From a bacterium (lineage in GTDB: Bacteria > Elusimicrobiota > Elusimicrobia > UBA1565 > UBA9628): a DNA stretch of 64,000 bases. Made by a program: the position numbers and the translations under genes. Positions 6,001 through 29,414 of the stretch are shown in pieces (positions within the stretch are counted from its first letter, which is position 1; each line of letters starts with the position of its first letter). The DNA is taken from the NCBI GenBank assembly GCA_021822495.1, contig JAKAQO010000007.1, positions 1-64,000 on the forward strand, read 5' to 3'. The notes below the pieces were generated by a model, which saw only the letters and a list, made by a program, of their open reading frames with translations, did not search any database and was not told where the DNA came from.

Positions 6001-9000
6001 AGAAAGCCCGGAAAATGTCGAAGGATGCCGCGGGAGTTCCCGAGGTTGCCGCCTGCCAGGAGAGGGCGATGAATTTTTGAGGTCCGTTGGAAACGGCGGT
6101 GAGATTCAAGGGAGCGTTGGGCGGCGGTAAAAGAGTTCTTATCGCGGCGGCGGGCGACGGGAGGGTCGCGATTTGCGCTCCATTACTCGCCTCGACGCGG
6201 AGGTAATAGGTCGTGTCCGGAAGGAGATTGAACAGGGCGGTCGTATTCTGGGTCAGGCCCGCCGAGAAGGGAATGGGGGTTGAGATGTTTTGGATGAAGT
6301 CGTCGGTTGAAAGATTGATTTGATAAAGGGTTCCATAGGGATTGCCTTGAGTATCCCAGGAGATGGAGAGGGCGACGGATGAGACAGCGATGGGAACGGG
6401 AGATGAGGGCGGAGCGGCCAGGGCGTAGGCGACTGAAGAGCAGCTCTCAAGCCCCGCGCCGAGAGCGTTGACCGCCGAGACGCAAATAAAGCTTGCCGCG
6501 CCGGTTGAAAGATTGACTTGAATAAAGGCGTTGGTTGAGACCGAAGCGAGAAATCCCTGGGTTGAGGAATAGATATTGTAGGAAAGGGCTCCCGTGGAGG
6601 CGTTCCAAGACCAGGCGATGGATGAAATTCCCAGGGCCGCGGAGGTAAAATTAGTCGGAGGCGGCGGCGGAGCGGGAAGGGTTTCGGTCGAGATGACGGC
6701 GGAAAAAGGCGAGGGATTATTATCGCCGTTAAAAGCCTCGACGCTTGCGTAATAGGTCGTGTTGGGCGAGAGAAATGAAAAGGAGGCGAAGGTCTGGGTT
6801 GAGACGGAGCCGGCAAAGAAATATCCCCCCGAGAAATTGTCGGTTGAAAGGGCCGCCTGATAGGTCGTCGAGCTGGGATTTGTGTTCGAGTTCCAGGAGA
6901 GAGTCAGGGTCGTGGAAGTCACGGAGATAAAGGTTGGATTTGAGGGAATGGCGGCGGCGGAGAAAATTGCCGGTCCGCAGCCCTCGGGGCTTTGGCCGAA
7001 CTGGTTTATGGCGATGACGCAGATTTGGCTCGGGGCGTTGGTCGAAAGCCCGACTTGGGTGAAGGAGTTTTGAGCCGTCTGTCCCAAAAGGACGCTCGTT
7101 CCCTCGTAAACGTCGTATCCGGAGGAAAATCCCGAGTTTTGCCAGTTCCAGGCGATGGAGGAAGTTCCGAGGGCGTATCCCTGGATGTTTTGCGGCGTTC
7201 CGGGCGGGACGGCGCCGTTGGGGCCCTGCCAGAAGAAACTCGCCGAACCCGCCAAGACGCTGGAACTGGGCTGGATGAGGCCCGAAAAATCCTCGGCTTG
7301 GGAGAAGATTTGATACTCATGCCCCGTCGTCAAAAAGCCGGAAAATCCTCCGAAATCGCCGTAGGGTTGGGAACTGGGAATGACGCCCTGTGTCCAGGAG
7401 GCGGCGTAGGGCGTGCCGGACAAGGACGCGAAGCCTTGAAAAAGCGGAATTGTCGTCGTGCTGATCCACTGCTGATTTTGGGCGTTCCACCAAAGATTTT
7501 CCGAGAGGTCCTGGGCGGCCAGTTCGACGTCTCCGACGCCGACATCGTCGGAGGCCGTTCCGGCGATGGAAGAGATTTGAGTCAAGGTCGAGCCCGATAT
7601 GAAGGACGCGACGGCGGAAGCGGGCGGGAGGGTATCGGGCGAGAGAGTCAAGTTGATATTGGGGACAGAAGTCGAGGCCGCGAGAAAAACGGGGGTGAAA
7701 TGGTTGTAGTCCCCGACGGGAGTTCCCGTGGACACGGGGCCTTGGCTGATGGTTCCGTCGACGGCGGCGATAAAATAGGTCGCGGGGGCGGCCAGGGTCA
7801 GGGAATAATTAAAACTGGTTCCCGAGGGCGCGGGACTGGTGGATATCCGCGCGGCGGATCCGAAAAAGGGGTTGGTCGAGGCGATGAGGCTCAAGGGCTC
7901 TCCGGCGAGAAATCCCGCCGAATCCGTAATGACGCCCGAAATTTGGCCGTATCCGGTCAAGGCGCAGGCGGCGGGGCCGGAGAAGCCGGCGAGAGGATTT
8001 CCCGGCTCAAAGAGGGTCGGAATATTTCCAAGGAGAACCCAGGGGTTGCCTGATGAGTCCAAGGCCACGCTGTCCGGCTCGAAATTAATTCCGTTGGCGA
8101 AAGCCTCCGGGTATCCCGAGATGAGATTTCCCGAGGGATCGTATTGCCAAAGAAGCGAGGCGGCGGAGGATTGTCCCGTCACCCACAAATCGCCGTAGGA
8201 GTCCAAGGCGATGGCTTCCCCCTCGTCTCCCAGACCGGCGGCGTCATGCCAGAGGTTTTGAGAGGTTTGAACTCCCGAGGCGTTATAGCTTAAGAGGGCC
8301 AGTTCCGGAACGAGACAAGCGGGGAAGGATTTTTGGGTGGCGATCCAGATTTGATTTTGAGCGGGGTTGACGGTCAGGCTGAGGTGGAAGTTATTGACGG
8401 ACTGATAAGCGTCAGTCCAGAAGACGGGAAATCCCGAGGAAAGAGCTCCCGAGGCGGAGTATTTCCAAAGGGCCATGTCGAGTTGGCCAGTGGCGGGATT
8501 CGAGCTGACGCCCGCGGTCCAGATATTTCCGGAAGGGTCGAGGGCGGCTTGAACGCCGCCGTCAAGCCCGCCTCCGCGCGAATAGGAGACGGGATATCCC
8601 GCCGCCAAAACCGCTTGCGGCAGGAATTTAAAGAGGTCCGCGCGGAAGGTGAAATTGGAGGAGGTCTCTTCCGCTGCGGGAACCCAAACGTTTCCGAAGG
8701 AATCCGCCGCGAGTTTTCCGGTAAAAATTTCGCTTCCCAGAGATGAAAAATAGGCGGAAGAAGCGATGGGGACGGAGTTGGAACTAAATTCCCAGATTCC
8801 CAGTCCTGATGCGGTTCCCGATGAAACTCCGCCGGAGACCCAGATGTTTCCCGAAGAGTCGAAGGCGGTTCCGAAGTTCGAGTTTCCCCCCGCGCCGGAA
8901 AGGGGCGACGATGAAATAAAGACGCCGGCGGAATTGTAGCGTTCAAGGCGGAAATTGATGGCATTGCCACTGGTCGTGTAGTCGTTGGCCACGTCCCAGA

Positions 9001-15617: not shown

Positions 15618-15631
15618 ACTATGTCCATAGT
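15618..15631. promoter_or_regulatory. Palindrome upstream of or overlapping the RhuM-family gene start
   Basis: ACTATG-TC-CATAGT, six-base arms with two central bases. It covers an in-frame ATG at 15621 and lies 38 bases before the preferred ATG at 15669, so it could be an operator if the downstream start is the real one. Confidence 0.3.
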
Positions 15632-15668
15632 CGTCCACGGAAAGAAAAAGAAGCAAAAAAGAAAAGCG

Positions 15669-16724
15669 ATGAACTCTCCCCAAGACAACCCAGGCGGCAA
15701 GTCCGAGATTCTGATCTACCAATCTGAGGACGGCAAGAGCCGTATTCAGGTCCGACTTGAGAACAATACTGTCTGGCTAACCCAGGCCCTGATGGCCGAT
15801 CTATTCCAGACGAGCATCCCAAATATCAGTATGCATATCCGGAACGTCTTCCAGGAGCACGAACTGGACTCTGAATCAGTTGTTAAGAATTACTTAACAA
15901 CTGCCGCAGATGGAAAAAAATACGCTACCTCATTCTATAATCTCGACGTCATCCTATCGGTCGGCTATCGGGTGCGCTCGCATCGCGGTACTCAGTTCCG
16001 CAAATGGGCGACCGAGCGGCTGCGGGAGTATCTCGTCAAGGGCTTCACGATGGATGACGAGCGTCTCAAGGAAGGCCGAACTCTCGGAACTGACTATTTC
16101 GACGAACTCCTTGAGCGCATACGGGAGATTCGAACTTCCGAGAAACGCTTCTATCAGAAGATTCGCGATATTTACAAGTTGGCTATCGACTACGATCCAG
16201 CCGCTGCGGCGACTCAAGAATTTTTTCAGATCGTCCAGAACAAGCTCCACTGGGCGGTCACGGGCCATACCGCCGCTGAGATCATCTCGCAACGTGCGGA
16301 TGTCGAGAAACCGAATATGGGGTTGACAAGCTGGAAGGGCGCGAAGGTTCGTCGGCAGGATGTCGTCATCGCCAAGAACTACCTCAATGAGAAGGAAATT
16401 CGAGACTTGAATCGCATTATTACTATGTACCTCGATTATGCCGAAGCGCAAGCCGAGCGCCGACAGCCGCTCTACATGAAAGATTGGAGGGAAAAACTCG
16501 ACGCCTTCCTGAAATTCAATGAACGTCAGATATTGGAGCGCCCGGGCAGGGTTTCCATGGAGGTTGCCCAAAAGCTCGCATTGGAGAGGTATGAGCAGTT
16601 CGAAAAGAAGCGTCTAGCCCAGGAAGCCGTTCTGCCGGACGAAGACTTCGAGCAGGTTGCCAAACAGCTGGAAAGCAAGCCCGCAAAGGGGCTCAAGCGC
16701 AAGAAAAAGAGTGGAGCGCAATGA
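15669..16724 (+). CDS. rhuM: RhuM-family protein (virulence RhuM / Fic-like cofactor family)
   Basis: About 351 residues. The N-terminal domain (I-L-I-Y-Q-S-E-D-G-K, V-W-L-T-Q-A-L-M-A-D-L-F-Q-T, V-I-L-S-V-G-Y-R-V-R-S) and the mid-region R-K-W-A-T-E-R-L-R-E-Y-L-V-K-G-F match the RhuM family, first named from a Salmonella pathogenicity island and frequent on genomic islands and next to defence genes. Biochemical function is not established; the first domain is probably a nucleic-acid-binding HTH. Start at 15669 fits family length; an in-frame ATG exists at 15621. Isolated here, with no Fic, restriction or toxin partner. Its position in a gene-poor stretch near a tRNA supports island origin. Confidence 0.8.
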   Translation: MNSPQDNPGGKSEILIYQSEDGKSRIQVRLENNTVWLTQALMADLFQTSIPNISMHIRNVFQEHELDSESVVKNYLTTAADGKKYATSFYNLDVILSVGYRVRSHRGTQFRKWATERLREYLVKGFTMDDERLKEGRTLGTDYFDELLERIREIRTSEKRFYQKIRDIYKLAIDYDPAAAATQEFFQIVQNKLHWAVTGHTAAEIISQRADVEKPNMGLTSWKGAKVRRQDVVIAKNYLNEKEIRDLNRIITMYLDYAEAQAERRQPLYMKDWREKLDAFLKFNERQILERPGRVSMEVAQKLALERYEQFEKKRLAQEAVLPDEDFEQVAKQLESKPAKGLKRKKKSGAQ

Positions 16725-17151: not shown

Positions 17152-18078
17152 CTATCTCTTTATCGGCGCAGGATGCAAAAATGATTCTCTTTTTAAATTA
17201 AAACAGGCGTTGAGGGCGGAGCTGATTTGAACGCCCCCCAGCGGATTTTTGTGCGCGATAAGCCAAGTGTCCGCATAAAGGCCCAGGGGTTTGGGATGAA
17301 GTTTGGTCAAGCGTCCTTGTTGGAGATCTTCTTGAATATTTAAGGGATTGATGGCGACGATGCCGTCTCCTCCAAGGGCCAGGGCGCGAATCAGTTCCGG
17401 ATCCTCGACTTCGACTTTGATCTTGGGCGTAATCCGCATTTTTTTGAGCCACTTTTCCAGCTGAAGGCGGATGGGGTTTCCCGGCGCGCGCAATAGGAAA
17501 GGAGCTTCTCTGAGAGCTTTAGGGAAAGGAGAAATCTTGGCTTTTAGAGAATGGGAAGAGACAAGATAGACCGGAGAACTCGAAAGAAGCGCGCTCCTAT
17601 GCAAGGAAAGAGGTTCCGGCTGGAGGTTTGAGTCGCAGATAGCCAGATCAATTTGCCTGCGTTCCAATTTTTGCCTTAATTCTTCCCAAGAGTGAGAGGA
17701 AATTCTCAGAAAGATATCGGGGATTTTCTCTTCAAGAATGCGTTTGATTTTAAGAATTTCATAAGGGGCGACCGAGAACGAGGTTCCTATCCTTAAAACC
17801 GTCTGAACTGATTTCTTTTCAATAATGGGAGAAAGAACGTCTTCCATGCGGGAAAACGTCTCTTGGCAGGATTCAAAAATTTTGAGTCCTTCCGGAGTGA
17901 GGCTCATGCCGCTTCTTTTGCGGTCAAAAAGTTTGGCGTTTAGTTTTTGTTCCAGAGATTTTATCTTGACGCTTAAAGTCGGTTGGGTGAGCCCGCATTC
18001 CTTGGCTGCGGCTGTTAAGCTTCCCGCCTGAGCGGTTTTAAAGAAATAATAGAGAAGATTGTATTGGTCTACGCTCAT
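17152..18078 (-). CDS. LysR-family transcriptional regulator, NhaR-like
   Basis: 308 residues. The N-terminal winged HTH (Y-N-L-L-Y-Y-F-F-K-T-A, then A-A-A-K-E-C-G-L-T-Q-P-T-L-S and L-F-D-R) has the Y-Y-F arrangement seen in NhaR-like LysR proteins. The effector domain (residues 90-290) shows R-I-G-T-S and D-L-A-I-C-D, as in periplasmic-binding-like LysR cores. It is divergent from the TolC-RND operon with about 85 bases between start codons and a palindrome in that gap, so it most likely controls the efflux genes and its own expression. Effector unknown. Confidence 0.88.
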   Translation of the reverse strand: MSVDQYNLLYYFFKTAQAGSLTAAAKECGLTQPTLSVKIKSLEQKLNAKLFDRKRSGMSLTPEGLKIFESCQETFSRMEDVLSPIIEKKSVQTVLRIGTSFSVAPYEILKIKRILEEKIPDIFLRISSHSWEELRQKLERRQIDLAICDSNLQPEPLSLHRSALLSSSPVYLVSSHSLKAKISPFPKALREAPFLLRAPGNPIRLQLEKWLKKMRITPKIKVEVEDPELIRALALGGDGIVAINPLNIQEDLQQGRLTKLHPKPLGLYADTWLIAHKNPLGGVQISSALNACFNLKRESFLHPAPIKR

Positions 18079-18082
18079 ATTT

Positions 18083-18110
18083 ATATTCTAATACTATTAT
18101 AGAAAAATAT
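18083..18110. promoter_or_regulatory. Candidate LysR operator between divergent genes
   Basis: The AT-rich gap contains TTCTA (18086-18090), nine bases, TAGAA (18100-18104), with flanks extending the dyad to ATATTCTA / TAGAAAAATAT. Dyad spacing fits the T-N11-A style of LysR boxes. It also contains TATAAT-like hexamers, so binding here would influence both directions. Confidence 0.5.
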
Positions 18111-18162
18111 TATATTTACAATGTTTTGGTTTTATGATGAAATCAAGTTGATAGGAGGCTTT

Positions 18163-19491
18163 GTGATTTGCGGTATAAATAGAAAATGCTCGTTCCTTAT
18201 CGTTTTTGGACTTCTTTTGCCTTCGAAGTCGTTTGCCGCGACTTTCGCGGCGCCGCTGAACGTAAAGGATGTTTTAATTTTAGCCGAGGACTACAGCCCG
18301 GATTTAAGGGCGGCTCGTCAGCGCGAAATCGAAGCCGAAAAGAATATCCATATTCAAGAGGCTTATCTCTATCCCACCTTGGATGCGGGCGGAGTCGCGA
18401 CGACAGGGTTTCCCGGGTTTAATAATCAAATGTCGATCTCGGGGCCCGGTTATAATAACGATTTGGGCGCGCAGGGAATGTATGCTTCCCCCTATACCGA
18501 GACGCCTGCCGGTGGGCTCACTTCGCAGTTGGATGTGGTTGATTTAAAAATTCCTTACCGCATTAAGCAGGCCAAGGCCCTTTATCAGGCTGAAAAAGCC
18601 CGGACCGAGATTATTCGCTATAAAGTGGATTGGGATGCGCTTAAATTTTATTTCCATTCGGTACGAGATATCGGCCTTCAAAAAGTTTGGGATGAAATTC
18701 TCAAGGTTAAAACCGATCCGGTTTATCATAAAGTCGTTTATTTCGTTAATCGCGGTCAGCATAATATGGCCGATGAGCTCTTAATCCATGACATGGTCGA
18801 AGAAGCGCAGCTCAATAAAGAAGCTTACCAGGCGCTTTACGGCCAAGCCATTGAGAAATTGGGTATTTATATAGGAAAAGATTCGGAGGATTTGGCGGCG
18901 CTTGATCCATCCGCCTTGAGTCAGGATGTCTTGACCGTTTTAACCTCAACTTCGGTGAGCGCCTATATTTCACAAGCTGAATTTCATTCCACCAGCGCTC
19001 ATGAGTTCTTGTCCTCAAGGAAAGCCGAGAATTATCCGCGCGTGACCGCGAAAGCAAGCGTGGGTGGGGCCACGGGGAGTCGCTTGGTGGGTTCGGAAGA
19101 TTACGCGGCGGGCGTTGGGGTCAGCGTTCCTATCTTTGAAGGTTTTGGAATTGAGAGCCGCATTGAGCAGGCCAGGGCTCGGGCCAAAGAAAAAGACGAG
19201 GCCGTTGATTCTCTCAAACTTTTTGTCGCGGTCGCCAATAAAACCTATGATGAACGGATTGCCTACGACAGCGCGCAGTTAAAATATCTTGATGAGGAGC
19301 TTAAGACCGATAAGGATGCTTACCAGGTTTCTCTTCATCGCTACGTGACCTACGTCGGTTCCTTGGTGGACGTTCGCGAAGCAATTCGAGACCTTGAGCG
19401 GGTGGAAACCCAGATTATTGATGACAAGACGGATTTGCTTCTCGCTTTGACCTCCAAAGCGATTCTTAATGGCAGTGCGGTGCGGAGATAA
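18163..19491 (+). CDS. TolC-family outer-membrane efflux protein (module 1)
   Basis: About 442 residues. GTG 18163 is chosen because AGGAGG lies four bases upstream; it yields a signal peptide ending at S-F-A-A. The mature protein has the OEP pattern: A-E-D-Y-S-P-D-L-R-A-A followed by long helices, A-G-V-G-V-S-V-P-I-F-E-G-F in the second repeat, and Y-V-T-Y-V-G-S-L-V-D-V-R. It should form the outer-membrane channel of a tripartite pump or type I-like system. One base separates its stop from the RND gene. It is clearly paralogous to the TolC at 26452-27789. Confidence 0.88.
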   Translation: MICGINRKCSFLIVFGLLLPSKSFAATFAAPLNVKDVLILAEDYSPDLRAARQREIEAEKNIHIQEAYLYPTLDAGGVATTGFPGFNNQMSISGPGYNNDLGAQGMYASPYTETPAGGLTSQLDVVDLKIPYRIKQAKALYQAEKARTEIIRYKVDWDALKFYFHSVRDIGLQKVWDEILKVKTDPVYHKVVYFVNRGQHNMADELLIHDMVEEAQLNKEAYQALYGQAIEKLGIYIGKDSEDLAALDPSALSQDVLTVLTSTSVSAYISQAEFHSTSAHEFLSSRKAENYPRVTAKASVGGATGSRLVGSEDYAAGVGVSVPIFEGFGIESRIEQARARAKEKDEAVDSLKLFVAVANKTYDERIAYDSAQLKYLDEELKTDKDAYQVSLHRYVTYVGSLVDVREAIRDLERVETQIIDDKTDLLLALTSKAILNGSAVRR

Positions 19492-19492
19492 T

Positions 19493-22400
19493 ATGGGTAT
19501 CGTTGACCTCTCTTTAAGACGTCCTGTGACGATCGTCATTATTGTTTTGTCGGTTCTTTTAGCCTCGGCCGGAGTGATCAGGAATATGCGCCGGGACATT
19601 CTCCCGGATTTGGGGCTTAACACCATCTATGTCGCGGAACCCTTCGGCGGCATGACGCCGGCCCAGATGGAAGGATATCTCACCTACCGCTACGAGCAGT
19701 TTTTCCTTTATCTCACGGGACTTAAGAGCATGGAGTCTCATTCAGCGCAAGGAATTGCCGTGGTCAAGCTTACCTTCGCCGAGGGAACCGATATGGAACA
19801 GGCGATGGGCGAAGTGATTGCGTATGCTTCCAGAGCGCGCGCTTTCATGCCGTCGGGAACATTTCCTCCCTTCATTTTGCGTTTTGACGCCAGCGATCTT
19901 CCGGTCGGAGATTTAGTGTTTGAATCGAAAAATGAACCGTTGAGCCGCTTGGTCGATCTGGCTTTTAACCGCGTTCGACCGATGTTCGGCGATTTGCCGG
20001 GAGTCATGGCGCCGGCGCCTTTTGGAGCGAGCCCGCGCACGATTGTCATTGAAATGAATGAGAAAAAAATGCGGGAATTGGACGTTTCCCCTGAAGACGT
20101 CGCGCGCGCGGTGACAAGCGGAAACGTCATCGTTCCCTCTGGAAATATGGACATGGGAACTAAATATCCTCTAATTCCGCTGAACTCTCCAGTCGCCGAT
20201 ATTCAGACCTTGGGAAATATTCCCGTTCGTTTAGGAACCTACCCAACCGTTTTTGTTAAAGATGTCGCTAAAATTAGAGACACGACCGATATCCCAACCG
20301 GTTTTGCGTTGGTTAATGGCGCTCGCTCGGTTTATATTCCGATTGCCAAGCATTCGGACGCCTCGACGCTTAAAGTTGTTGCCGAAATTAAGGCTAATCT
20401 ATGGCGCTTTCGCGAGGTTTTGCCGAAAGATATTAAACTCAGCTACGCTTTTGACCAGTCCGGATATGTCAAACGCGCGATCGGGTCCTTGGCCTTTGAA
20501 GGTGGATTGGGCGCTCTTTTGACCAGTCTCATGGTTCTTTTATTTCTTCAAGATTGGCGCTCGGCCTTGATTGTGGCGGTGATCATTCCCATTTCTCTTG
20601 CGTTTGCGATGATCCTTCTTTATTTAATGAAGCAGACGGTCAATATCATGACCCTTGGGGGACTCGCCTTGGCGGTTGGAATTTTAGTTGATGAATGCAC
20701 GGTAACCATTGAGAATATCCACTCTCATTTGGACAAGGGTCAACCCATCGCGCGCGCAAGTTTGGATGGAACGACGGAAGTCCTTTTTCCCAACTTCCTG
20801 GCGGTTTTGTGCGTCCTGGCCGTTTTCATTCCGTCTTTCGTCATGAAAGGCGTGGCGGGACATCTCTTTTTACCGCTATCAGTCGCTGTTGGATCAGGAA
20901 TGATCGGATCTTATATTTTCTCATCCACTCTTGCCCCCATTCTGTCCACTTGGCTTATTAAATCACAGGGGCATGGGGAGTCTAAAGAAGCTTCAAAAGG
21001 CTTTAGTTTCGACGTCATTCGCAAGGGATACCGCAAACTTCTTGAGAATATTCTCATGCCTTGGCGGGGACTAGTCTTGATGCTCTATTTTGCCGCAGCG
21101 GGATTGTTTTTGTTTTTTGGGTTTAAGCATTTGGGTCTTGAGATTTTTCCCCAAGTTGATACCGGAGAGTTTAGAATGGTCGTTCGCTGCCCCACGGGTT
21201 CGAGCATCGAATACACGGAAGCCATAACGAAGAAAGCGATGGACATCATTAAAAAAGATGTCGGGGAAAAGAATGTCAAGATATGGATTGGTCTTGTTGG
21301 AATGCAGACGCCTGATTACGCGCTGAACAATATCTATCAGTATTCCCCGGGTCCCGAGATGGCTTATATTGATATTGCCCTGCGAGAACATTCCGGAGTC
21401 AAGGTTTTTGATCTGGAACAAAAGTTAAGAAAACAATTTAAAGAACTCATTCCCGACACGCGGTTTTCCTTTGAACCGAATGATATTCTGGATGTGGCCA
21501 TGAGTTTGGGAGAACCTAAGCCCGTTGGCGTTTCCGTTTCGGGTCCCTTCTTTAATCGCGATATTAGTTACGCCAAGAAAATCAAGGTCGCGATGGAGAA
21601 GATTCCTTATTTAAGGGACTTGGAAACGGTTGAGAGCTTTGATTACCCCACCATTGCGGTCAATATGGACAGGCGTAAGGCCGGCATTTTGGGCGTGACG
21701 GCCAAAGACATCGGACAATCGCTGGGAGACGCGGCGGCCTCATCCCGTTATACCATTCCTTCTTTCTGGGCCGATCCAAAAACAGGAATCAGTTACGAGG
21801 TTCAAGTCGAAGTTCCGCAAGATAAAATCAAAACTCTTGCGGATGTCAAAAAATTTCCGGTTCCGGTGAGGCGAGTCGAAGATTCTCATGGTTGGATTTC
21901 GGTTTCGGATATGGCTCAAGTTGTTTCCACAGAGACCGTCGGTTCCTACGATCGCTTGAATATGCAAAGAAGCGTCAATATCGCGGCTAATATTGTCGGG
22001 GCGGATTTGGGAAAAGTGGGGAGGTCGGTGCGCCAGGCGCTTGAGTCTGTTGCTTCCGAAAGGCCCAAGGGAGTGACCGTTCATTTGCGCGGGCAGATTT
22101 TGCCGCTTGAAGAAATTTTAAACGGGTTTTCATTCGGCCTGGCTTTGTCGGTCGTGGTCATTTTCCTTTTGCTCTCGGCGAATTTCCAGTCAATTACGCT
22201 AACCCTCGCGATTTTGTCGACGGTTCCGGCGGTCTTGTCCGGCGTGGTCGCGGCGCTTCTTTTAACGCATACGACGATTAACATCGAATCATTCATGGGA
22301 GCGATTATGTCGGTGGGCGTGGCCATTGCCAATGCCGTTTTACTGGCGGATTTTGCCGACCGGTACCGAAGGCAAGGGATGGGCGCGGTGGGCGGTTCCC

Positions 22401-22705
22401 TAGAAGGCGCGACGACAAGATTTCGCCCGATTTTAATGACGGCTTTGGCGATGATTGCGGGAATGATTCCCATGGCCTCGGGGCTCAGCGAAGGCGGAAA
22501 ACAGACCGCGCCCTTGGGACTTGCCGTTATCGGAGGCATGGGTTTGGCGACGGTCGCGACCTTACTCATTTTGCCGCTCGCGATTGCGGCTCTCCAAAGA
22601 TCGGCGTCTCCTCATCCGCCATCTTTACATCCGGATGACTCGCACAGCCCGCACTATCATCCAGAAGGGATGGATGAACGAGGGCTCAAAACATCTTCCG
22701 TTTAG
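19493..22705 (+). CDS. RND-family (HAE1-like) efflux permease, module 1
   Basis: 1070 residues; ATG 19493, one base after the TolC stop, with GGAGAT before it. Typical RND architecture: TM1 with R-R-P-V-T, two large periplasmic loops, TM2-6 and TM8-12 blocks, F-D-Q-S-G-Y-V-K-R-A-I in the docking segment. In TM4 the proton-relay pair reads L-V-D-E rather than AcrB's D-D, and the TM10 Lys equivalent (G-x-x-x-K-N-A) is Ala; the TM11 Arg (R-P-I-L-M-T-A-L) is present. The C-terminal tail is His-rich. Expected role: proton-driven export, substrate unknown. No membrane-fusion protein gene is adjacent. Confidence 0.92.
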   Translation: MGIVDLSLRRPVTIVIIVLSVLLASAGVIRNMRRDILPDLGLNTIYVAEPFGGMTPAQMEGYLTYRYEQFFLYLTGLKSMESHSAQGIAVVKLTFAEGTDMEQAMGEVIAYASRARAFMPSGTFPPFILRFDASDLPVGDLVFESKNEPLSRLVDLAFNRVRPMFGDLPGVMAPAPFGASPRTIVIEMNEKKMRELDVSPEDVARAVTSGNVIVPSGNMDMGTKYPLIPLNSPVADIQTLGNIPVRLGTYPTVFVKDVAKIRDTTDIPTGFALVNGARSVYIPIAKHSDASTLKVVAEIKANLWRFREVLPKDIKLSYAFDQSGYVKRAIGSLAFEGGLGALLTSLMVLLFLQDWRSALIVAVIIPISLAFAMILLYLMKQTVNIMTLGGLALAVGILVDECTVTIENIHSHLDKGQPIARASLDGTTEVLFPNFLAVLCVLAVFIPSFVMKGVAGHLFLPLSVAVGSGMIGSYIFSSTLAPILSTWLIKSQGHGESKEASKGFSFDVIRKGYRKLLENILMPWRGLVLMLYFAAAGLFLFFGFKHLGLEIFPQVDTGEFRMVVRCPTGSSIEYTEAITKKAMDIIKKDVGEKNVKIWIGLVGMQTPDYALNNIYQYSPGPEMAYIDIALREHSGVKVFDLEQKLRKQFKELIPDTRFSFEPNDILDVAMSLGEPKPVGVSVSGPFFNRDISYAKKIKVAMEKIPYLRDLETVESFDYPTIAVNMDRRKAGILGVTAKDIGQSLGDAAASSRYTIPSFWADPKTGISYEVQVEVPQDKIKTLADVKKFPVPVRRVEDSHGWISVSDMAQVVSTETVGSYDRLNMQRSVNIAANIVGADLGKVGRSVRQALESVASERPKGVTVHLRGQILPLEEILNGFSFGLALSVVVIFLLLSANFQSITLTLAILSTVPAVLSGVVAALLLTHTTINIESFMGAIMSVGVAIANAVLLADFADRYRRQGMGAVGGSLEGATTRFRPILMTALAMIAGMIPMASGLSEGGKQTAPLGLAVIGGMGLATVATLLILPLAIAALQRSASPHPPSLHPDDSHSPHYHPEGMDERGLKTSSV

Positions 22706-23222
22706 ACTCATGATTTCTTATCCATCCCTTCATTTCCGCCGAAGTATTTGACTTTAAAATAATTATTTTTGTCTAATGACTGAGTATGACATGGGTCATA
22801 AAAAGATCAGCGGCGCTTGAAAGGCTTTTCTCTTTTGCCTTGGCTTTGCAATTTTTTGTGAGCCCGGTTATTTTTAGCAGCCGAGGTTTTGATTTACCGC
22901 GTCTTAAAGGCTCTTCTCCAATCATGACGACTTCTTCTTCCCAGGATTTGGGCCTGATCTATTCCGTTTTTGCCGCTCATCATAAACGCGCCGGCAGCCG
23001 TCACCAAACTCACAGGAGGTCTTGCACCCTTTTGTCAGAAACTTCTGCTTGCGCGTTGGGCCAAGCTTCTTTTGAATCTACACCGTTCCGAAAGGCGTTG
23101 TCGGCTCTCCCTGATCCGTTTTATCCCCCTCCCGCTTCAGTCCTTATTTAACGAGAGAAATCTCGCGCGTAGTTTTGTTTGTAGAATGTTATGTTTGAAA
23201 TTAAATAGAGTCAGAGGAAAAA
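22706..23222. other. 517-bp spacer between the two efflux modules
   Basis: A frame at 22786-23151 (121 codons) has a hydrophobic start but no ribosome binding site and no recognisable family, so I do not call it. The spacer begins with a promoter candidate (22748-22777), and a small hairpin CGAGA-GAAA-TCTCG lies at 23152-23165. It probably provides independent expression of the second module or is debris of a lost gene, possibly the missing adaptor; neither is shown. Confidence 0.4.
22748..22777 (+). promoter_or_regulatory. Candidate promoter upstream of RND module 2
   Basis: TTGACT (22748-22753), 18 bases, TCTAAT (22772-22777), in an AT-rich stretch right after RND1. It is 446 bases from the RND2 start codon, so a long leader or another promoter closer to the gene is implied. 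Confidence 0.35.
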
Positions 23223-26200
23223 ATGAAAGGTCCTAAAATTGAAATAGTTCCCGCTGTTCGCGGCGCGATGCGCCGTCCGATTACGGTCGTCGTTTTAGTT
23301 TTGGCGCTGATTCTTGGCGCGTTTTGGGCGATCAAACAAATGCCTCGCGACATTTTGCCCAATCTTAATTTGCCTGTTATTTATGTCGCCCAGCCTTACG
23401 GCGGCATGACTCCGGCACAGATGGAAGGTTATTTGACCTATTACTACGAATATCACTTCCTTTATACTACGGGAATCAAATCCATCGAATCAAAAAATAT
23501 TCAAGGAACGGCTTTAATTAAGCTGACTTTCCATAATGGAACCAATATGGCCGGAGCTATGGCTGAAGTGGTTGACTATGCCGACCGGGCGAGAGCCTTC
23601 ATGCCACCGGGGACTGTGCCGCCCTTCATTTTGCGCTTTGACGCGGGAAGCCTTCCGATTGGAGATCTTGTTTTCTCAAGTAAAACGCGCCCCTTGGGGG
23701 TCATTGCGGACTTGGCCCTTAACCGGGTGAGACCCTTGTTTGCCACCTTGCCGGGAGTTTCTTCTCCCCCGCCTTTTGGCGCTTCTCAGAGAACTATTGT
23801 CATTAGAATGAATGAGCAGGCGATGAGGAAATACAACGTTTCTCCTGGGGATGTCGCCAAGGCCGTGACCCAAGGAAACGTGGTCATTCCCGCGGGGAAC
23901 ATTTATCTAGGAAACAATTACCCAATTGTTCCATTAAACTCGGTGGTCAATAATATTCAGCAGCTCGGTGATATTCCAATTCGACTGGGAACCTATCCAA
24001 CCGTTTTCGTTAGGGATGTGGCTAAAATTGAGGATGGAACAGACATCACGGTTGGATATGCCTTGATTAACGGCCGCCGTTCGATTTATATTCCGGTCAC
24101 CAAACGCCCGGATGCCTCGACACTCGCAGTCGCTGCTTTGGTCAAGAAAAACCTTCCAAACTTCCAAGATGTTTTGCCTAATGACGTGAAAGTCAGCTAT
24201 GCTTTTGACCAAACGGGCTATGTTAAGCGCGCGATTGGGTCGCTGGTCTTTGAAGGCGCGATGGGAGCTTTACTCACGAGCTTAATGGTTCTTCTCTTTC
24301 TTCGCGACTTAAAGAGCGCTTTTATCGTGACTTTAAATATTCCCCTGGCCTTGGCTTTTGCTGTGGTCGTTTTGTGGTTGACCAAGCAAACGGTCAACAT
24401 TATGACTCTTGGGGGACTGGCCTTGGCTGTTGGAGTCTTAGTAGATGAAACGACGGTCACCATTGAAAACATTCATACGCACATGGGAGACGGAAAAAGC
24501 GTCGCCCGCGCCGCCCTTGAGGGAACGAGTGAAATCATTATCCCTAAATTCATGGCCATGATCAGCATCTTGGCCGTGTTCATTCCTTCCTTTTTAATGA
24601 AAGGCGTTGCGGGAGGCCTCTTCATTCCTCTCTCCATCGCGGTCGGATTTTCGATGATGGGATCTTATTTATTATCTAATACCTTCGTTCCTATTCTATC
24701 GAGTTGGATCCTAACACACAAACATCACGAATTTGGAAGCGAAGGCCTGACGGGGTTTGCCTGGTTTAGGGAGAAATACCGGCATATACTCAAACATTTA
24801 ATGCCGTTTAGAATTCCTATTTTAATCGGTTATTTTGCTGTCGCCGGGCTTATTTTACTTTACGCCGGAATGCACTTGGGGCTTGAAATTTTCCCGCAAG
24901 TTGATAACGGAGAATTTACGATGATTCTGCGCGCTCCCACGGGAACGACTTTCCAAAAAACCGAGGAATACGCCAATCAGGCCTTGAACGCGATTAAGCA
25001 GGAGGTGGGGCCCAAAAATCTCGCTATCTCGGTTGGAATTGTCGGCATGCAGTCTCCCGATTACGCGATTAATAATATTTACTTGTGGTCTTCAGGTCCC
25101 CAATACGCGATATTGGATATCGGGCTTCGGCATGGTTGCAATATTCCAGTTGTTCCTCTTGAAGAAAAATTGCGCAAGAAATTCGCGAAACTTTTCCCGA
25201 ATATTCTGTTTTCCTTTGAGCCTAACGACATCATCAGTAAAGTCATGAGTCAAGGAGCTACAAAACCCATTGAAGTCGCGGCTGCCGGGCCTTATTTCAC
25301 CTCGGATCAAAAATACGGTCAAGAGATTAAGCAGGTTCTGTCCAAAATTCCATATCTTAGGGATCTTGAAATCGAACAGCAGTTCAATTACCCGACTGTT
25401 TCCGTGGATATGAGTCGCGAACAGGCGGGAATTAGGGGCCTGACCGTTAACCAGGTTGGGCAGACCTTGGCGGATGCGGCAGCTTCTTCCCGCTACACCA
25501 TTCCGGCTTTCTGGGCGGATTTAAAAAGTGGAATCGCCTATCAAGTGCAAGTCGAGGTTCCGCAAAGGCATATCACCTCGGTTAAAGACATCCAGAAACT
25601 TCCGATTCCGGTCAAATACAGTTCCAGCTATGCCGGAGTCATCCCTCTTAATAAATTTGCCACAGTGACCTCGACGGTCTCCGTCGGGGAATATGATCGC
25701 TATGATATGTTGCGCATGGTGAGCGTGGCGGCCAATATTTACGGCGCGGATTTGGGCAAGGTTTCAAGGGAAGTCAAGCGCGCGATGGCGACGATAGCCA
25801 AGGATCGCCCCAAAGGCGTGACTGTTTTCTTAAGAGGTCAAATAACCCCCTTGCAAGAAATGATGGACGGTTTTGCGTTTGGACTGGCCTTGTCCTTGAT
25901 CGTTATTTTCTTGGTCCTTTCAGCCAACTTCCAATCCATCAAATTGGCGGTTACGGTTTTGTCTACCGTGCCAGCAGTTTTGTCTGGAGTGGCCATTGCT
26001 CTTCTACTGACTCATACGACGATTAATATCGAATCGTTCATGGGTTCGATTATGTCCATTGGAGTCGCGGTCGCCAATGCTATTTTGTTGGTTGACTTCG
26101 CGGAACGCTTCCGTATGGAGGGAATGGGAGCCGTTCACGGAGCGGTGGACGGCGCGGCGAGCCGCTTGCGTCCTATTTTGATGACGGCTTTGGCGATGTT

Positions 26201-26468
26201 GGCCGGAATGGTCCCCATGGCCTTGGGCCTTAGCGAAGGCGGTTCTCAGACCGCTCCTTTAGGAAGGGCTGTGATCGGGGGCCTCAGCGTCGCGACCATT
26301 GCGACCTTGTTTTTGCTTCCCATGGCTTTTGCGGTCATTCAAGGGAAAGCCGCTCTTAAATCGCCCTCCTTGGATCCCGATGATCCGAAGAGCGCTCAGT
26401 ATGATTTAGGAAAAGTAAATTCCGCGCATCCCGCGGGAGAGGAGCTCAGTCATGCGCATCACGAATAA
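23223..26468 (+). CDS. RND-family (HAE1-like) efflux permease, module 2
   Basis: 1081 residues, start ATG 23223 with AGAGG upstream. It is a close paralogue of the permease at 19493-22705 along its whole length, including A-Q-P-Y-G-G-M-T-P-A-Q-M-E-G-Y, F-D-Q-T-G-Y-V-K-R-A-I and the TM4 L-V-D-E and TM10 Lys-to-Ala substitutions. The cytoplasmic C-terminus has the same S-L-D-P-D-D motif and ends in H-A-H-H-E. Its 3' end overlaps the second TolC gene by 17 bases. Probably arose by local duplication; whether the two permeases form one heteromeric pump or two pumps cannot be told from sequence. Confidence 0.92.
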   Translation: MKGPKIEIVPAVRGAMRRPITVVVLVLALILGAFWAIKQMPRDILPNLNLPVIYVAQPYGGMTPAQMEGYLTYYYEYHFLYTTGIKSIESKNIQGTALIKLTFHNGTNMAGAMAEVVDYADRARAFMPPGTVPPFILRFDAGSLPIGDLVFSSKTRPLGVIADLALNRVRPLFATLPGVSSPPPFGASQRTIVIRMNEQAMRKYNVSPGDVAKAVTQGNVVIPAGNIYLGNNYPIVPLNSVVNNIQQLGDIPIRLGTYPTVFVRDVAKIEDGTDITVGYALINGRRSIYIPVTKRPDASTLAVAALVKKNLPNFQDVLPNDVKVSYAFDQTGYVKRAIGSLVFEGAMGALLTSLMVLLFLRDLKSAFIVTLNIPLALAFAVVVLWLTKQTVNIMTLGGLALAVGVLVDETTVTIENIHTHMGDGKSVARAALEGTSEIIIPKFMAMISILAVFIPSFLMKGVAGGLFIPLSIAVGFSMMGSYLLSNTFVPILSSWILTHKHHEFGSEGLTGFAWFREKYRHILKHLMPFRIPILIGYFAVAGLILLYAGMHLGLEIFPQVDNGEFTMILRAPTGTTFQKTEEYANQALNAIKQEVGPKNLAISVGIVGMQSPDYAINNIYLWSSGPQYAILDIGLRHGCNIPVVPLEEKLRKKFAKLFPNILFSFEPNDIISKVMSQGATKPIEVAAAGPYFTSDQKYGQEIKQVLSKIPYLRDLEIEQQFNYPTVSVDMSREQAGIRGLTVNQVGQTLADAAASSRYTIPAFWADLKSGIAYQVQVEVPQRHITSVKDIQKLPIPVKYSSSYAGVIPLNKFATVTSTVSVGEYDRYDMLRMVSVAANIYGADLGKVSREVKRAMATIAKDRPKGVTVFLRGQITPLQEMMDGFAFGLALSLIVIFLVLSANFQSIKLAVTVLSTVPAVLSGVAIALLLTHTTINIESFMGSIMSIGVAVANAILLVDFAERFRMEGMGAVHGAVDGAASRLRPILMTALAMLAGMVPMALGLSEGGSQTAPLGRAVIGGLSVATIATLFLLPMAFAVIQGKAALKSPSLDPDDPKSAQYDLGKVNSAHPAGEELSHAHHE

Positions 26469-27789
26469 GTTGAAAATTTTTTCCTTGGTTTTGGGAATTG
26501 AGGCGGTTTTATTTGTTTCAGTTCCCGTCTACGCGGCTTCTCCTGCTTCGTCTTTTGGCGGTAATGCGGGCTCATCGGTCTTAACCTTGCCGGATGTGTT
26601 GCGCTTGTCCGAGGATTACAACCCGGATCTCAAAGCCGCCAAGGCGCAAGAGATTCAAGCTCAACAAGAGGTGACCATCCAACAATCCTTTTACTACCCA
26701 ACGTTAAATTTGGAAGGACAGAGCTCTGCGGGTTTTCCTGGTTCCAATCAGCACGGGATTCTTAATACCGGCGGTTTGGTCAATTCTCCGTTTGCTGATA
26801 CTCCTTCGGGAGGCTTAGTTTCTCAACTTAATATCCTGGATTTGACGATTCCTTTTAAAGTCAGTTCCGCCCGTTATTATCTGGAAGCGACCAAGCAGCA
26901 TACTGAGATTATCCGCTATGAAGTGGACTGGAAAGCCCTTGGCTATTATTTTGATTCCATTCGCTATTTGAGCGATTATCTCATTTGGAAAGATATTTAT
27001 CATCGCGCGAGCGTTCTCCAACATCTGGTCGAGCGGTTGGTTAAGACCGGACAACACAACCTTGCGGATCAATACTTAATCGAGGTTCAAGCGGGACTTG
27101 CTTTGGCGGAACAAAAAGCTTATCATGCGCGTTATGTGGCTTCCCTTAAAAATCTCGCTCTTTTTTTAGGGAAAAAGCCGGAGGATGTTTTGGTTCCTTC
27201 ATTTCGAACTTTCGATGCGAAATCACTTAAAAAAATTGCGCCAGGGGCGGCCAGCGCCTTCATTCTTAAAGCGGTCGCGGATGCGGAAAGCGCGCATTCA
27301 CTAGTGAATGCCAATAAAGCTCAAAATTATCCGACGATTGTCGGTTTGGGTTCGATTGGTTCAATGAACGCGACCAAGGGTGGAATACCTTTGAATGACA
27401 CATCCGTGGGTGTTGGCCTGAACCTGCCGGTTTTTGAAGGGTTTAAAATTCAAAGCGGAGTCAAAAAGGCGCAAGGCTTTGAAACCGAAAGGCAAGAACA
27501 GATTAAAGGACTTAAACTCTATGTGGATGAGGACAATGCCCGTTACGATGAGTCCATCGCTTATGATCAAGCGCGCATCAACACATTAAAGCCGTTGGCC
27601 AAGACCACTGAAAGCGCTTTTTCCGAAGCAAGGAAGCGTTATCTCAACTATATCGGTCCGCTTGTTGATTTACGCGATGCCATTCAATACTTGGCGCAAG
27701 TCCAGGGTGAGCTGAACGATTCCCAGACAAGTTTATGGTTTAATGCCGCTTCCAAGGCGGTCTTAAACGGCGGAAAGATCGCTCGTTAA
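26452..27789 (+). CDS. TolC-family outer-membrane efflux protein (module 2)
   Basis: 445 residues with a signal peptide ending near V-Y-A-A. Paralogue of the first TolC: L-S-E-D-Y-N-P-D-L-K-A-A, V-G-V-G-L-N-L-P-V-F-E-G-F and Y-L-N-Y-I-G-P-L-V-D-L-R-D-A mirror it. The ATG lies inside the RND2 coding end with GAGGAG about eight bases before it, so translation is coupled. It meets the minus-strand membrane protein gene tail to tail with a four-base overlap. Confidence 0.88.
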   Translation: MRITNKLKIFSLVLGIEAVLFVSVPVYAASPASSFGGNAGSSVLTLPDVLRLSEDYNPDLKAAKAQEIQAQQEVTIQQSFYYPTLNLEGQSSAGFPGSNQHGILNTGGLVNSPFADTPSGGLVSQLNILDLTIPFKVSSARYYLEATKQHTEIIRYEVDWKALGYYFDSIRYLSDYLIWKDIYHRASVLQHLVERLVKTGQHNLADQYLIEVQAGLALAEQKAYHARYVASLKNLALFLGKKPEDVLVPSFRTFDAKSLKKIAPGAASAFILKAVADAESAHSLVNANKAQNYPTIVGLGSIGSMNATKGGIPLNDTSVGVGLNLPVFEGFKIQSGVKKAQGFETERQEQIKGLKLYVDEDNARYDESIAYDQARINTLKPLAKTTESAFSEARKRYLNYIGPLVDLRDAIQYLAQVQGELNDSQTSLWFNAASKAVLNGGKIAR

Positions 27790-29414
27790 TCTAAGAGATG
27801 GGGACTGTCCCTATCTCTCTTAATCGCGAGGTTGATTTGGAGAATTTGATCTTTCCAGGGGATGAGTAATATTCTGTCCGGGTCGTCTGTCGTTCCGCGA
27901 CGACTGGCCCACGACGAGATTTCTCGCGCGAACTTCTTATCTGAAGGAATCGGCGGATATTTTTTCTGCAAGTCCGGCCGGTATAAGTAAATAGTCGAGA
28001 TGAGCTTCCAAATCAGCCAATCGGTTGGACGCTTTTGAAACAAGCGTTTTAATGATTCTGGCGCGGGCAAAAGCGTATGGGCTTTCCAGTTTGAAAACAC
28101 ATTTAAGCGGTATTTTTCAAGGATGAACGCCCTAGCTGGGATTTTCTGAGGATAGGGATAGAGATACGTCGCAATCAATGCGGGAGAGACGACCCGATAA
28201 TTCATGAGAACTTCCTGGCCTATGGTATCGCGGCTTAAATAATTTTTTCCGGTGGACAATCCCCAATCGAGGGAGGCGATAATTTGAATGAGGCAGATGA
28301 ATAAGAAGGCTCGGAATGGAAGGGCGAATTTCTTTTCATCTACCTTCATCATTTCCAACAGCGTCAAATAAATGGAAATAAGAAAAAAAAGCCCGCAGAT
28401 GGCGTAGCGCGGGGAAAGGGCTTGCCCAGGGCCGAACCCCGCGCGCCCAATGGAGGCGGCAAGACAGAAAAGAAGAGCGAATATTCCGATTGCCGCCGGC
28501 GCGAGAAAAGCCTTGTCTTTTTTAGAACGCGTCAGCGCCTGAAACAGGCTTGGAACCCCAGCGATTAACAAGGATAGCCCGACAAAATCCCTGGCGGCAA
28601 AAAAGTTCTTTCCATTATGCTTGAGCGGAAAAACGAGTATTCCCCCTAAAAATGTCAGAAGATATTCCAGAAAATTCAGCGGGTGGCTTAATCCGTAAAG
28701 GATTGTTGGTCCTCCGGTTGAGTGAAAATTAAAGCCCGTGAAGTAGATGATTCCGCAAATGAGGGCGGTCAATATCCAAATTTTTTTTTGTCGTGGACTG
28801 AAATCATTAAACAAAAGATAGATAAATCCTGCGGGCCAAATAAAAAGCCCCTGAAGGGAAGAAAAAGACGCGAGGATGGCCAAAAGGATGGCGGCAGCAA
28901 AAGCCATTTGATTCTTTCCGGATTCCTCAAGGCAGGCGATCGCCCCTAAAAAACAAAAGAAAACCAATTGCCAGGCCATTTGAAATCCCCAAAGGATGTT
29001 CTCGGTGTCGCTCAGATTAAACAACAAATAGGCGAGGGGAATGAGAGGCCAGATTCGCGGGCCATGTCTTCTGATAAAAATAATGGATAGGGAGAAAAAC
29101 GAGAGAGTCACAAGTATCCCGCTAGACATCATAGCGGCCTTGACGTTAAAAGCCGTTAGACGGTAAAGGGCGATGAAAATAAGATTAGGGATCAACATTC
29201 GGTTTTCATTGTGTTGGGCCCAAAGGTGCGCAAATTTTAGATTTCCGGCGTAGAAATGTCCCATCAGGGAAACGATTTCCCAATCGTCGAAAAACGGAGT
29301 TTTGAGTCCATAGGCGCTTATGAAGTAAAAATAAAACGCGATTGGGAAGAAAATCAGGATGAGGGCTAGGACAAAGGGTAATTGAGGGAAAAAAGAGAAT
29401 GTTCTTTGTCGCAT
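27786..29414 (-). CDS. Polytopic membrane protein, GT-C glycosyltransferase-like
   Basis: 542 residues with about 11 predicted membrane segments and a soluble C-terminal part. After TM1 the first outside loop carries F-F-D-D-W-E-I-V and then H-N-E-N-R-M; an acidic pair in this loop is characteristic of GT-C fold enzymes that use polyprenyl-phosphate sugars. No closer family recognised, so substrate and product are unknown. Its last codons are built from a palindromic repeat-like sequence. Single gene, no partner on its strand. Confidence 0.6.
   Translation of the reverse strand: MRQRTFSFFPQLPFVLALILIFFPIAFYFYFISAYGLKTPFFDDWEIVSLMGHFYAGNLKFAHLWAQHNENRMLIPNLIFIALYRLTAFNVKAAMMSSGILVTLSFFSLSIIFIRRHGPRIWPLIPLAYLLFNLSDTENILWGFQMAWQLVFFCFLGAIACLEESGKNQMAFAAAILLAILASFSSLQGLFIWPAGFIYLLFNDFSPRQKKIWILTALICGIIYFTGFNFHSTGGPTILYGLSHPLNFLEYLLTFLGGILVFPLKHNGKNFFAARDFVGLSLLIAGVPSLFQALTRSKKDKAFLAPAAIGIFALLFCLAASIGRAGFGPGQALSPRYAICGLFFLISIYLTLLEMMKVDEKKFALPFRAFLFICLIQIIASLDWGLSTGKNYLSRDTIGQEVLMNYRVVSPALIATYLYPYPQKIPARAFILEKYRLNVFSNWKAHTLLPAPESLKRLFQKRPTDWLIWKLISTIYLYRPDLQKKYPPIPSDKKFAREISSWASRRGTTDDPDRILLIPWKDQILQINLAIKRDRDSPHLLD
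27794..27818. repeat. Palindrome with GGGGACTGTCCC core at the convergent gene ends
   Basis: AGAGATGGGGAC and GTCCCTATCTCT form a 12-bp hairpin with one G-U pair. It lies in the last codons of the 27786-29414 gene and just after TolC2. The GGGGAC-T-GTCCC core resembles REP-type palindromes associated with RAYT transposases in many bacteria; it may also act as a bidirectional terminator, though no U-run follows on either strand. Confidence 0.5.

Follow-up and report, generated by a model that had tools for sequence, protein, structure and literature searches.

An RND-TolC locus of Elusimicrobiota without a linked periplasmic adaptor: two candidate adaptor-free efflux units

RND pumps of the HAE1 kind are described as three-part machines. 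The locus considered here lies in a 64-kb stretch of DNA (the window; contig JAKAQO010000007.1, positions 1 to 64,000) from a draft genome of the phylum Elusimicrobiota (GenBank assembly GCA_021822495.1; 2.2 Mb, 94.7% complete), and it encodes two HAE1-type permeases, RND1 and RND2, and two TolC-family outer-membrane efflux proteins (OEPs), OEP1 and OEP2, with no gene for a periplasmic adaptor of the HlyD/AcrA type. The absence of a cognate adaptor from loci of this type is well supported and is common to several genera. We read the locus as two dedicated efflux units from a clade lacking a cognate periplasmic adaptor, that is, as adaptor-free RND-OEP pumps, and place the probability of this reading at roughly 40%. 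A dedicated RND-OEP pair maintained in several genera with no cognate adaptor is a natural test system for direct docking of a channel on a pump, and a negative outcome would also be informative because it would reveal unusually wide adaptor sharing.

The lack of an HlyD/AcrA-type adaptor, on which the initial annotation of this DNA had remarked, is borne out over the whole 64 kb. Two adaptor profiles built in this analysis and run on stop-to-stop open reading frames (ORFs) of at least 40 amino acids gave nothing better than E = 0.17 among 4,033 ORFs from 20 adaptor-less loci, which partly overlap one another (320,501 bases, the whole window included). Pfam and both profiles agree in finding no same-locus adaptor gene by which the locus could be placed in a tripartite RND system. 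An adaptor concealed in the gap between the two units is ruled out, the longest ORF there having 121 amino acids and no match to either profile, and so is an adaptor fused to an RND protein or an OEP, as neither protein lengths nor Pfam reveal an extra domain. A locus in decay is excluded by intact genes in several species and by the ratio of nonsynonymous to synonymous substitution rates (dN/dS), which is 0.03–0.07 for the RND proteins and OEPs where dS is finite and 0.15–0.19 for the divergent LysR-family regulator, all of these being rough values with dS above 1. RND2 is the most conserved of the genes of the locus between the window and L018, a locus of the same genus (94% identity, dN/dS 0.03), and by these sequence comparisons the locus is under purifying selection.

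The same condition recurs in relatives within the phylum. A search for the RND proteins in 340 Elusimicrobiota genomes (E ≤ 1e-150, two candidates scored per genome) yielded matches at 22 places in 13 genomes. No adaptor was found in the available flank at 17 of these places, which belong to 11 genomes of four genera. At eight of the 17, each flank of the locus extends for 2 kb or more. The 11 genomes are 62–97% complete. Adaptors are present at the remaining five places (L138–L142), which are 30–34% identical. With five candidates scored per genome, an OEP-type profile marked 17 places at E ≤ 1e-45, all of them in the same 11 of the 340 genomes. Matches to TIGR01730 in the genomes G012, G015, G018, G215, and G222 fall off the adaptor-less loci.

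The gene order at these places varies. The four-gene layout, for which the initial annotation proposed a survey of relatives, is found in full in L018 (genome G004) of the window's genus, which repeats the divergent LysR gene, the OEP-RND-RND-OEP series, and the genes flanking the locus beyond OEP2; other relatives also carry the units singly, as OEP-RND or RND-OEP. Genus g9 has RND-OEP (L113 and L115, the OEP of L115 being on the minus strand) and an RND-RND tandem that ends at the contig end (L112, L114), where the second RND is broken and is presumed to continue in L162 and L163, which hold RND-end and OEP pieces on other contigs of the same genomes. Genus g8 has RND-OEP (L136) and LysR / OEP-RND (L137, on the same contig as L021), and genus g12 has OEP-RND (L143). 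In L163 (977–2352), an OEP of the same type is split across two frames in one draft genome, through sequencing error or as a decayed gene. Across the genera, the RND and OEP genes adjoin in either order and mostly overlap. The proposal that the two permeases assemble together is not required by these data, as some loci have a single RND and a single OEP (L113, L115, L136, L137/L021, and L143), and an obligate RND1/RND2 assembly is excluded by them. MdtABC-type systems likewise have two adjoining paralogous RND genes, but they differ in the linked MdtA adaptor, which is missing here, and in that single-RND loci of the present kind exist.

Outside the phylum, the adaptor is nearly always present. 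The best 79 of 286 confirmed homologous loci were analyzed, comprising six from Elusimicrobiota (L018–L023) and 73 from other phyla, chiefly Verrucomicrobiota and Acidobacteriota as judged by title. An adaptor adjoins the RND gene in 70 of the 73 and in none of the six; the other three (L032, L084, and L091) reach contig edges, and the absence is therefore lineage-specific. A consistently linked adaptor in close relatives, which would have told against the initial annotation, was not encountered within the phylum, but these more distant relatives do have one. The RND-membrane fusion protein-OEP loci of the other phyla (L024–L096) share the RND subfamily with the window, with 45–51% identity and similar motifs in transmembrane helices (TM) 4 and 10, but they differ in the adaptor beside the RND gene and in OEPs that are 15–21% identical to OEP1 and carry other tip residues.

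The channels themselves are distinctive at the periplasmic tips. The AlphaFold2 (AF2) model of OEP1 has a mean predicted local distance difference test score (pLDDT) of 81.9 and a normal TolC fold, for which Foldseek returns TolC, OprN, CusC, VceC, and OprM; together with the Pfam OEP matches, this coiled-coil barrel places the proteins in the TolC family, the fold being taken from OEP1. By sequence, the OEPs of the adaptor-less loci form a discrete subfamily with a tip signature of its own, GQHN..D..L at one tip and RY-x4-G-[PS]-LVD-[VL]-R-[ED]-A at the other, whereas adaptor-linked OEPs typically have AG..FKGD..R and R[KR]....G.VLE..QAE. The tips of the adaptor-less OEPs are 53% identical and the rest of the proteins 26–35%, as against tips averaging 25–41% in adaptor-linked pairs with 25–35% identity in the rest. 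The tip-2 signature, relaxed to RY-x4-G-x-LVD-x-R-[DE]-A, occurs in 33 OEP ORFs out of 166, and every one of the 33 belongs to an adaptor-less locus, although the signature was derived from the same sequences in which it is then found and overlapping loci repeat some ORFs. In VceC, an outer-membrane factor of solved structure, RYQGGLATYLD aligns with tip-2. L143 is adaptor-less, and its RND protein is only about 30% identical to RND2; this RND is paired with an OEP of the locus subfamily (5979–10483), and the channel is therefore the more constant partner.

The permeases are conventional. Both exceed the ACR_tran cut-off of 28 bits, and the AF2 model of RND2 (pLDDT 81.2) is that of a normal HAE1 permease, matching AdeB with a Z score of 54.9 over 996 residues. 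TM4 Asp and TM11 Arg act in the proton relay, and both are found in LVDE of TM4 in the two proteins and in RFRPILMT (RND1) or RLRPILMT (RND2) of TM11. The TM10 Lys of the relay, which we take to be AcrB K940, is not found: the position of the MdtB Lys is held by Ala, in a VANA motif that also occurs in the adaptor-linked relatives compared. The TM4 and TM10 motifs are similar to those of the adaptor-linked relatives. The locus thus resembles AcrAB-TolC, MexAB-OprM, and AdeABC in the alignment of RND2 with AdeB and in the TolC/OprM/OprN fold of OEP1, and departs from them in the Ala at the MdtB Lys position and with regard to the adaptor: the locus has no adaptor gene, and the rest of the genome yielded no cognate one.

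Constraint on the periplasmic sub-domains of the RND proteins was compared between five adaptor-less pairs and adaptor-linked pairs of similar overall identity; the pairs are not independent, and four L113 pairs and one L143 pair (29–47% overall) are left out of the count, having hardly any adaptor-linked counterparts. Sub-domain borders are approximate, being presumed AcrB borders shifted by 10 residues, an offset consistent with the AdeB alignment. PC2a is less conserved in all five adaptor-less pairs than in adaptor-linked pairs, PN1 is less conserved in four and equal in the RND2-L136 pair, and DN is more conserved in four and lower in the L112-L136 pair. The adaptor-linked Elusimicrobiota pair L141-L142 (PN1 86%, DN 67%, PC2a 62%) behaves as the adaptor-linked set does. 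A shift of constraint among PN1, DN, and PC2a in adaptor-less RND proteins is suggestive only. Thirty residues are specific to the window's genus, versus 18 in a control split of Acidobacteriota against the rest.

In the adaptor-free arrangement that we favor, each RND trimer would act as a proton-driven exporter and hand its substrate to the OEP trimer of the same unit. No HlyD/AcrA-type protein would take part: the tip of the OEP would contact the docking funnel of the RND protein directly, as in the old deep-docking models. RND1 and RND2 would not need to co-assemble. The divergent LysR-family protein would control the first unit, and a separate promoter within the gap may serve the second unit. 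A stronger form of this proposal, that the loci constitute a two-component RND-TolC family in which the OEP docks on the RND funnel, the adaptor having been given up by an ancestor that several Elusimicrobiota genera share or never having been present in their branch, is held only tentatively. Direct contact of pump and channel is itself disputed between deep-interpenetration and tip-to-tip models (PMC4446572). Among the matches listed from a phrase search of open papers in PubMed Central, none deals with this locus or with RND-OEP loci that are adaptor-free.

Several observations weigh against adaptor-free pumping. Nine of the 17 adaptor-less places have less than 2 kb of flanking sequence on one or both sides, namely two each in G001 and G002, those in G003 and G022, and G012:C94, G018:C8, and G215:C1, the last with 0.9 kb downstream. 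The OEP segments measure 78–79, 93, 85, and 44 residues, compared with medians of 78, 103, 84, and 45 in 67 adaptor-linked OEPs, so that a longer OEP barrel standing in for the adaptor is ruled out. Within the window's genus, no periplasmic sub-domain of the RND proteins differs by more than 4 residues; PN2a of L113 and L115 has 10 additional residues. Since the OEP segments are equal or shorter and the RND sub-domains of the genus hardly differ, nothing has been lengthened to replace an adaptor. The OEP also keeps acidic and tyrosine residues at positions matching the TolC gate; its invariant D218, Y408, and D417 and the acidic residue 420 presumably fall on gate positions in TolC numbering, and conservation of the tips may for this reason reflect gating instead of docking. 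The hairpin-less adaptor of the Borrelia system has a partner, BesC, with a disrupted gate (PMC4446572), and the OEP here is unlike it. Direct docking is thus not demonstrated, because the fold and the gate-like residues are unaltered and nothing is lengthened; of the explanations offered in the initial annotation it is slightly favored. Finally, with distant RND proteins as the root, the adaptor-less sequences form a grade around the adaptor-linked clade at a point where long branches meet, and with so long an outgroup branch the sequences would fit either loss of the adaptor or its primitive absence.

The most serious competitor, itself short of an even chance, is that both units work as conventional tripartite pumps, borrowing an adaptor whose gene accompanies another transporter, much as AcrD relies on AcrA or AcrE. 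AcrD provides the precedent for such borrowing, which counts against adaptor-free pumping, and is alike in being an RND without an adaptor gene of its own (PMC8446912). It differs from the present locus, where each RND gene has its own overlapping OEP gene and where the genome yielded no close cognate adaptor. Candidates for lending are present, as the source genome (G000) carries eight full RND genes and eight adaptor-like genes. RND-linked adaptors lie beside RND genes at C4:51927, C4:490657, and C4:239–245 kb, the last region overlapping a separate OEP-RND-RND-adaptor locus at C4:237–246 kb; others are linked to a major facilitator superfamily (MFS) gene (C4:543671) or to ATP-binding cassette (ABC) genes (C7:30411, C6:62445, and C4:672036), and one at C6:91001 (L017), apparently hairpin-less, stands alone. 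The genome-wide search for HlyD-family genes that the initial annotation called for thus gave eight adaptor-like genes, among which no cognate adaptor was found. A profile was made from 19 adaptors linked to the RND genes of relatives. For the 53 held-out ORFs of relatives that exceed 100 bits, its median score is 443 bits and its lowest 122, and the linked adaptors of L138–L140 reach 225–237 bits; its best score in the source genome is 122.6 bits, on an adaptor with its own RND pair.

The adaptors listed for seven of the 11 locus-bearing genomes were grouped by reciprocal best hits. An adaptor ORF was recovered at E < 1e-5 from 38 of 39 adaptor regions, the exception being L188; overlapping G000 loci appear as repeated single groups, and the G004 adaptors, taken from the matches listed, may be an incomplete set. 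Group 0 (ABC) and group 1 (MFS where a transporter is seen) occur in all seven genomes, the RND-linked groups 2 and 4 in six, and an MdtA-like group in four. The presence of groups 2 and 4 in six of the seven counts against the adaptor-free reading, and the continued constraint on OEP tips and gate-like residues also suits borrowing. However, in every group found in two or more genomes, most members adjoin an ABC, MFS, or RND gene, often with an OEP; the EmrA-like members of G215 and G222 and one adaptor of G012 (L172) adjoin only an OEP. The locus RND proteins are only 23–25% identical to the other six of the genome, the OEP tips look by eye unlike those of five other aligned OEPs of the genome, and the MdtA-like adaptor is missing from three of the seven genomes. 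No orphan adaptor group is common to the seven, which removes a dedicated unlinked adaptor among the shared groups. Since no cognate was found in the genome and the shared groups adjoin other transporters, a dedicated distant HlyD-family adaptor is unlikely; of the earlier idea that a distant adaptor is shared, only borrowing from a pump that owns its adaptor keeps an appreciable probability.

A bridge of another kind, either an unlinked non-HlyD protein or a hairpin-less adaptor-like protein such as that of L017, could join RND and OEP, which we regard as unlikely. The L017 protein (L017:700–1797; G000 C6:90203–91297) is of lipoyl type with little or no hairpin by eye, no transporter is seen in its 3.1-kb locus, and the gene beside it is presumably thyX. 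BesABC of Borrelia, in which BesA, an adaptor without the hairpin, associates with an RND transporter, lends this some plausibility and is similar to the present locus in departing from the usual adaptor requirement; it is dissimilar in that BesA is still present and the BesC gate is disrupted, the gate-like positions being retained in the locus OEP (PMC4446572). Of 38 genomes, the source genome included, 37 contain proteins like L017 at E ≤ 1e-5 and 32 do so at E ≤ 1e-19, with or without the locus; the weakest matches fall partly on MacA-like genes. They therefore do not track the locus, and L017 is ruled out as a specific partner. A common bridging gene is also not apparent nearby, as the loci of other genera share no neighbor with the window ORFs except LysR in some (L021/L137, L115) and weak regulator-domain matches, their other neighbors, where scanned, being of unrelated families. 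Least probable of all is that the RND proteins pump into the periplasm only, with the OEPs separate or the pair not serving tripartite efflux: it would accord with the absence of any adaptor found and with a substrate that is not established, but the adjacency and overlap of RND and OEP genes in either order across genera point to joint function.

The coordinates of the adaptor-free candidate units and their regulator are given in Table 1.

Table 1. Genes and intergenic gap of the locus, in window coordinates.
Feature	Coordinates	Strand	Remarks
LysR-family regulator	17152–18078	-	Divergent from OEP1; Pfam LysR_substrate and HTH_1
OEP1, TolC-family outer-membrane channel	18121–19491	+	Pfam OEP, 87 bits; AF2 model with TolC/OprM/OprN fold
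RND1, HAE1-type permease	19469–22705	+	ACR_tran, 602 bits; overlaps OEP1
Gap between the two units	22706–23222		517 bp; without adaptor ORF
RND2, HAE1-type permease	23223–26468	+	ACR_tran, 626 bits
OEP2, TolC-family outer-membrane channel	26452–27789	+	Pfam OEP, 87 bits; overlaps RND2

All five genes are intact, and the initial description of two paralogous permease-channel pairs in the order TolC, RND, RND, TolC holds: the RND proteins are 61% identical and the OEPs 38%, the genes overlap within each pair, and the pairs are parted by the gap. The term mirror-image applies to the gene order only, as the four genes lie on one strand and make up two units of opposite internal order. The true start of OEP1 is likely the GTG at 18163, behind AGGAGG, in place of the annotated 18121. 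The regulator is divergent and of the LysR family, as had been noted, and its position is retained in L018, L019, and L021; calling it NhaR-like is unspecific, since it scores 78 bits against an NCBIfam NhaR cut-off of 219 and NhaR ranks sixth among LysR-type models. No inverted repeat was reported in the gap, and a promoter scan gave 10 matches compared with 10.1 in shuffled sequence.

The origin of the layout can be sketched from the RND tree, in which the RND1 clade is sister to the RND2 clade and L021 groups with RND1; the duplication therefore predates the split of RND1 between the window's genus and L021. Single OEP-RND units and single RND-OEP units both exist, and the mirror order is therefore best explained by the juxtaposition of one unit of each kind.

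Some neighboring genes and a second cluster deserve mention. A gene at 27786–29414 on the minus strand, without a Pfam or NCBIfam match, is convergent with OEP2 and is retained there in L018, L022, L023, and L117. A RhuM-family gene (15621–16724, plus strand) lies just upstream of the locus, with no matching ORF listed for L018. Elsewhere in the source genome (C4:535.8–550.3 kb; L118 5829–19900 and L119 1–432), a one-strand cluster in the order OEP-RND-OEP-EmrA-like-EmrB-like-Fic-OEP-RND contains two further RND genes with no RND-type adaptor seen adjoining.

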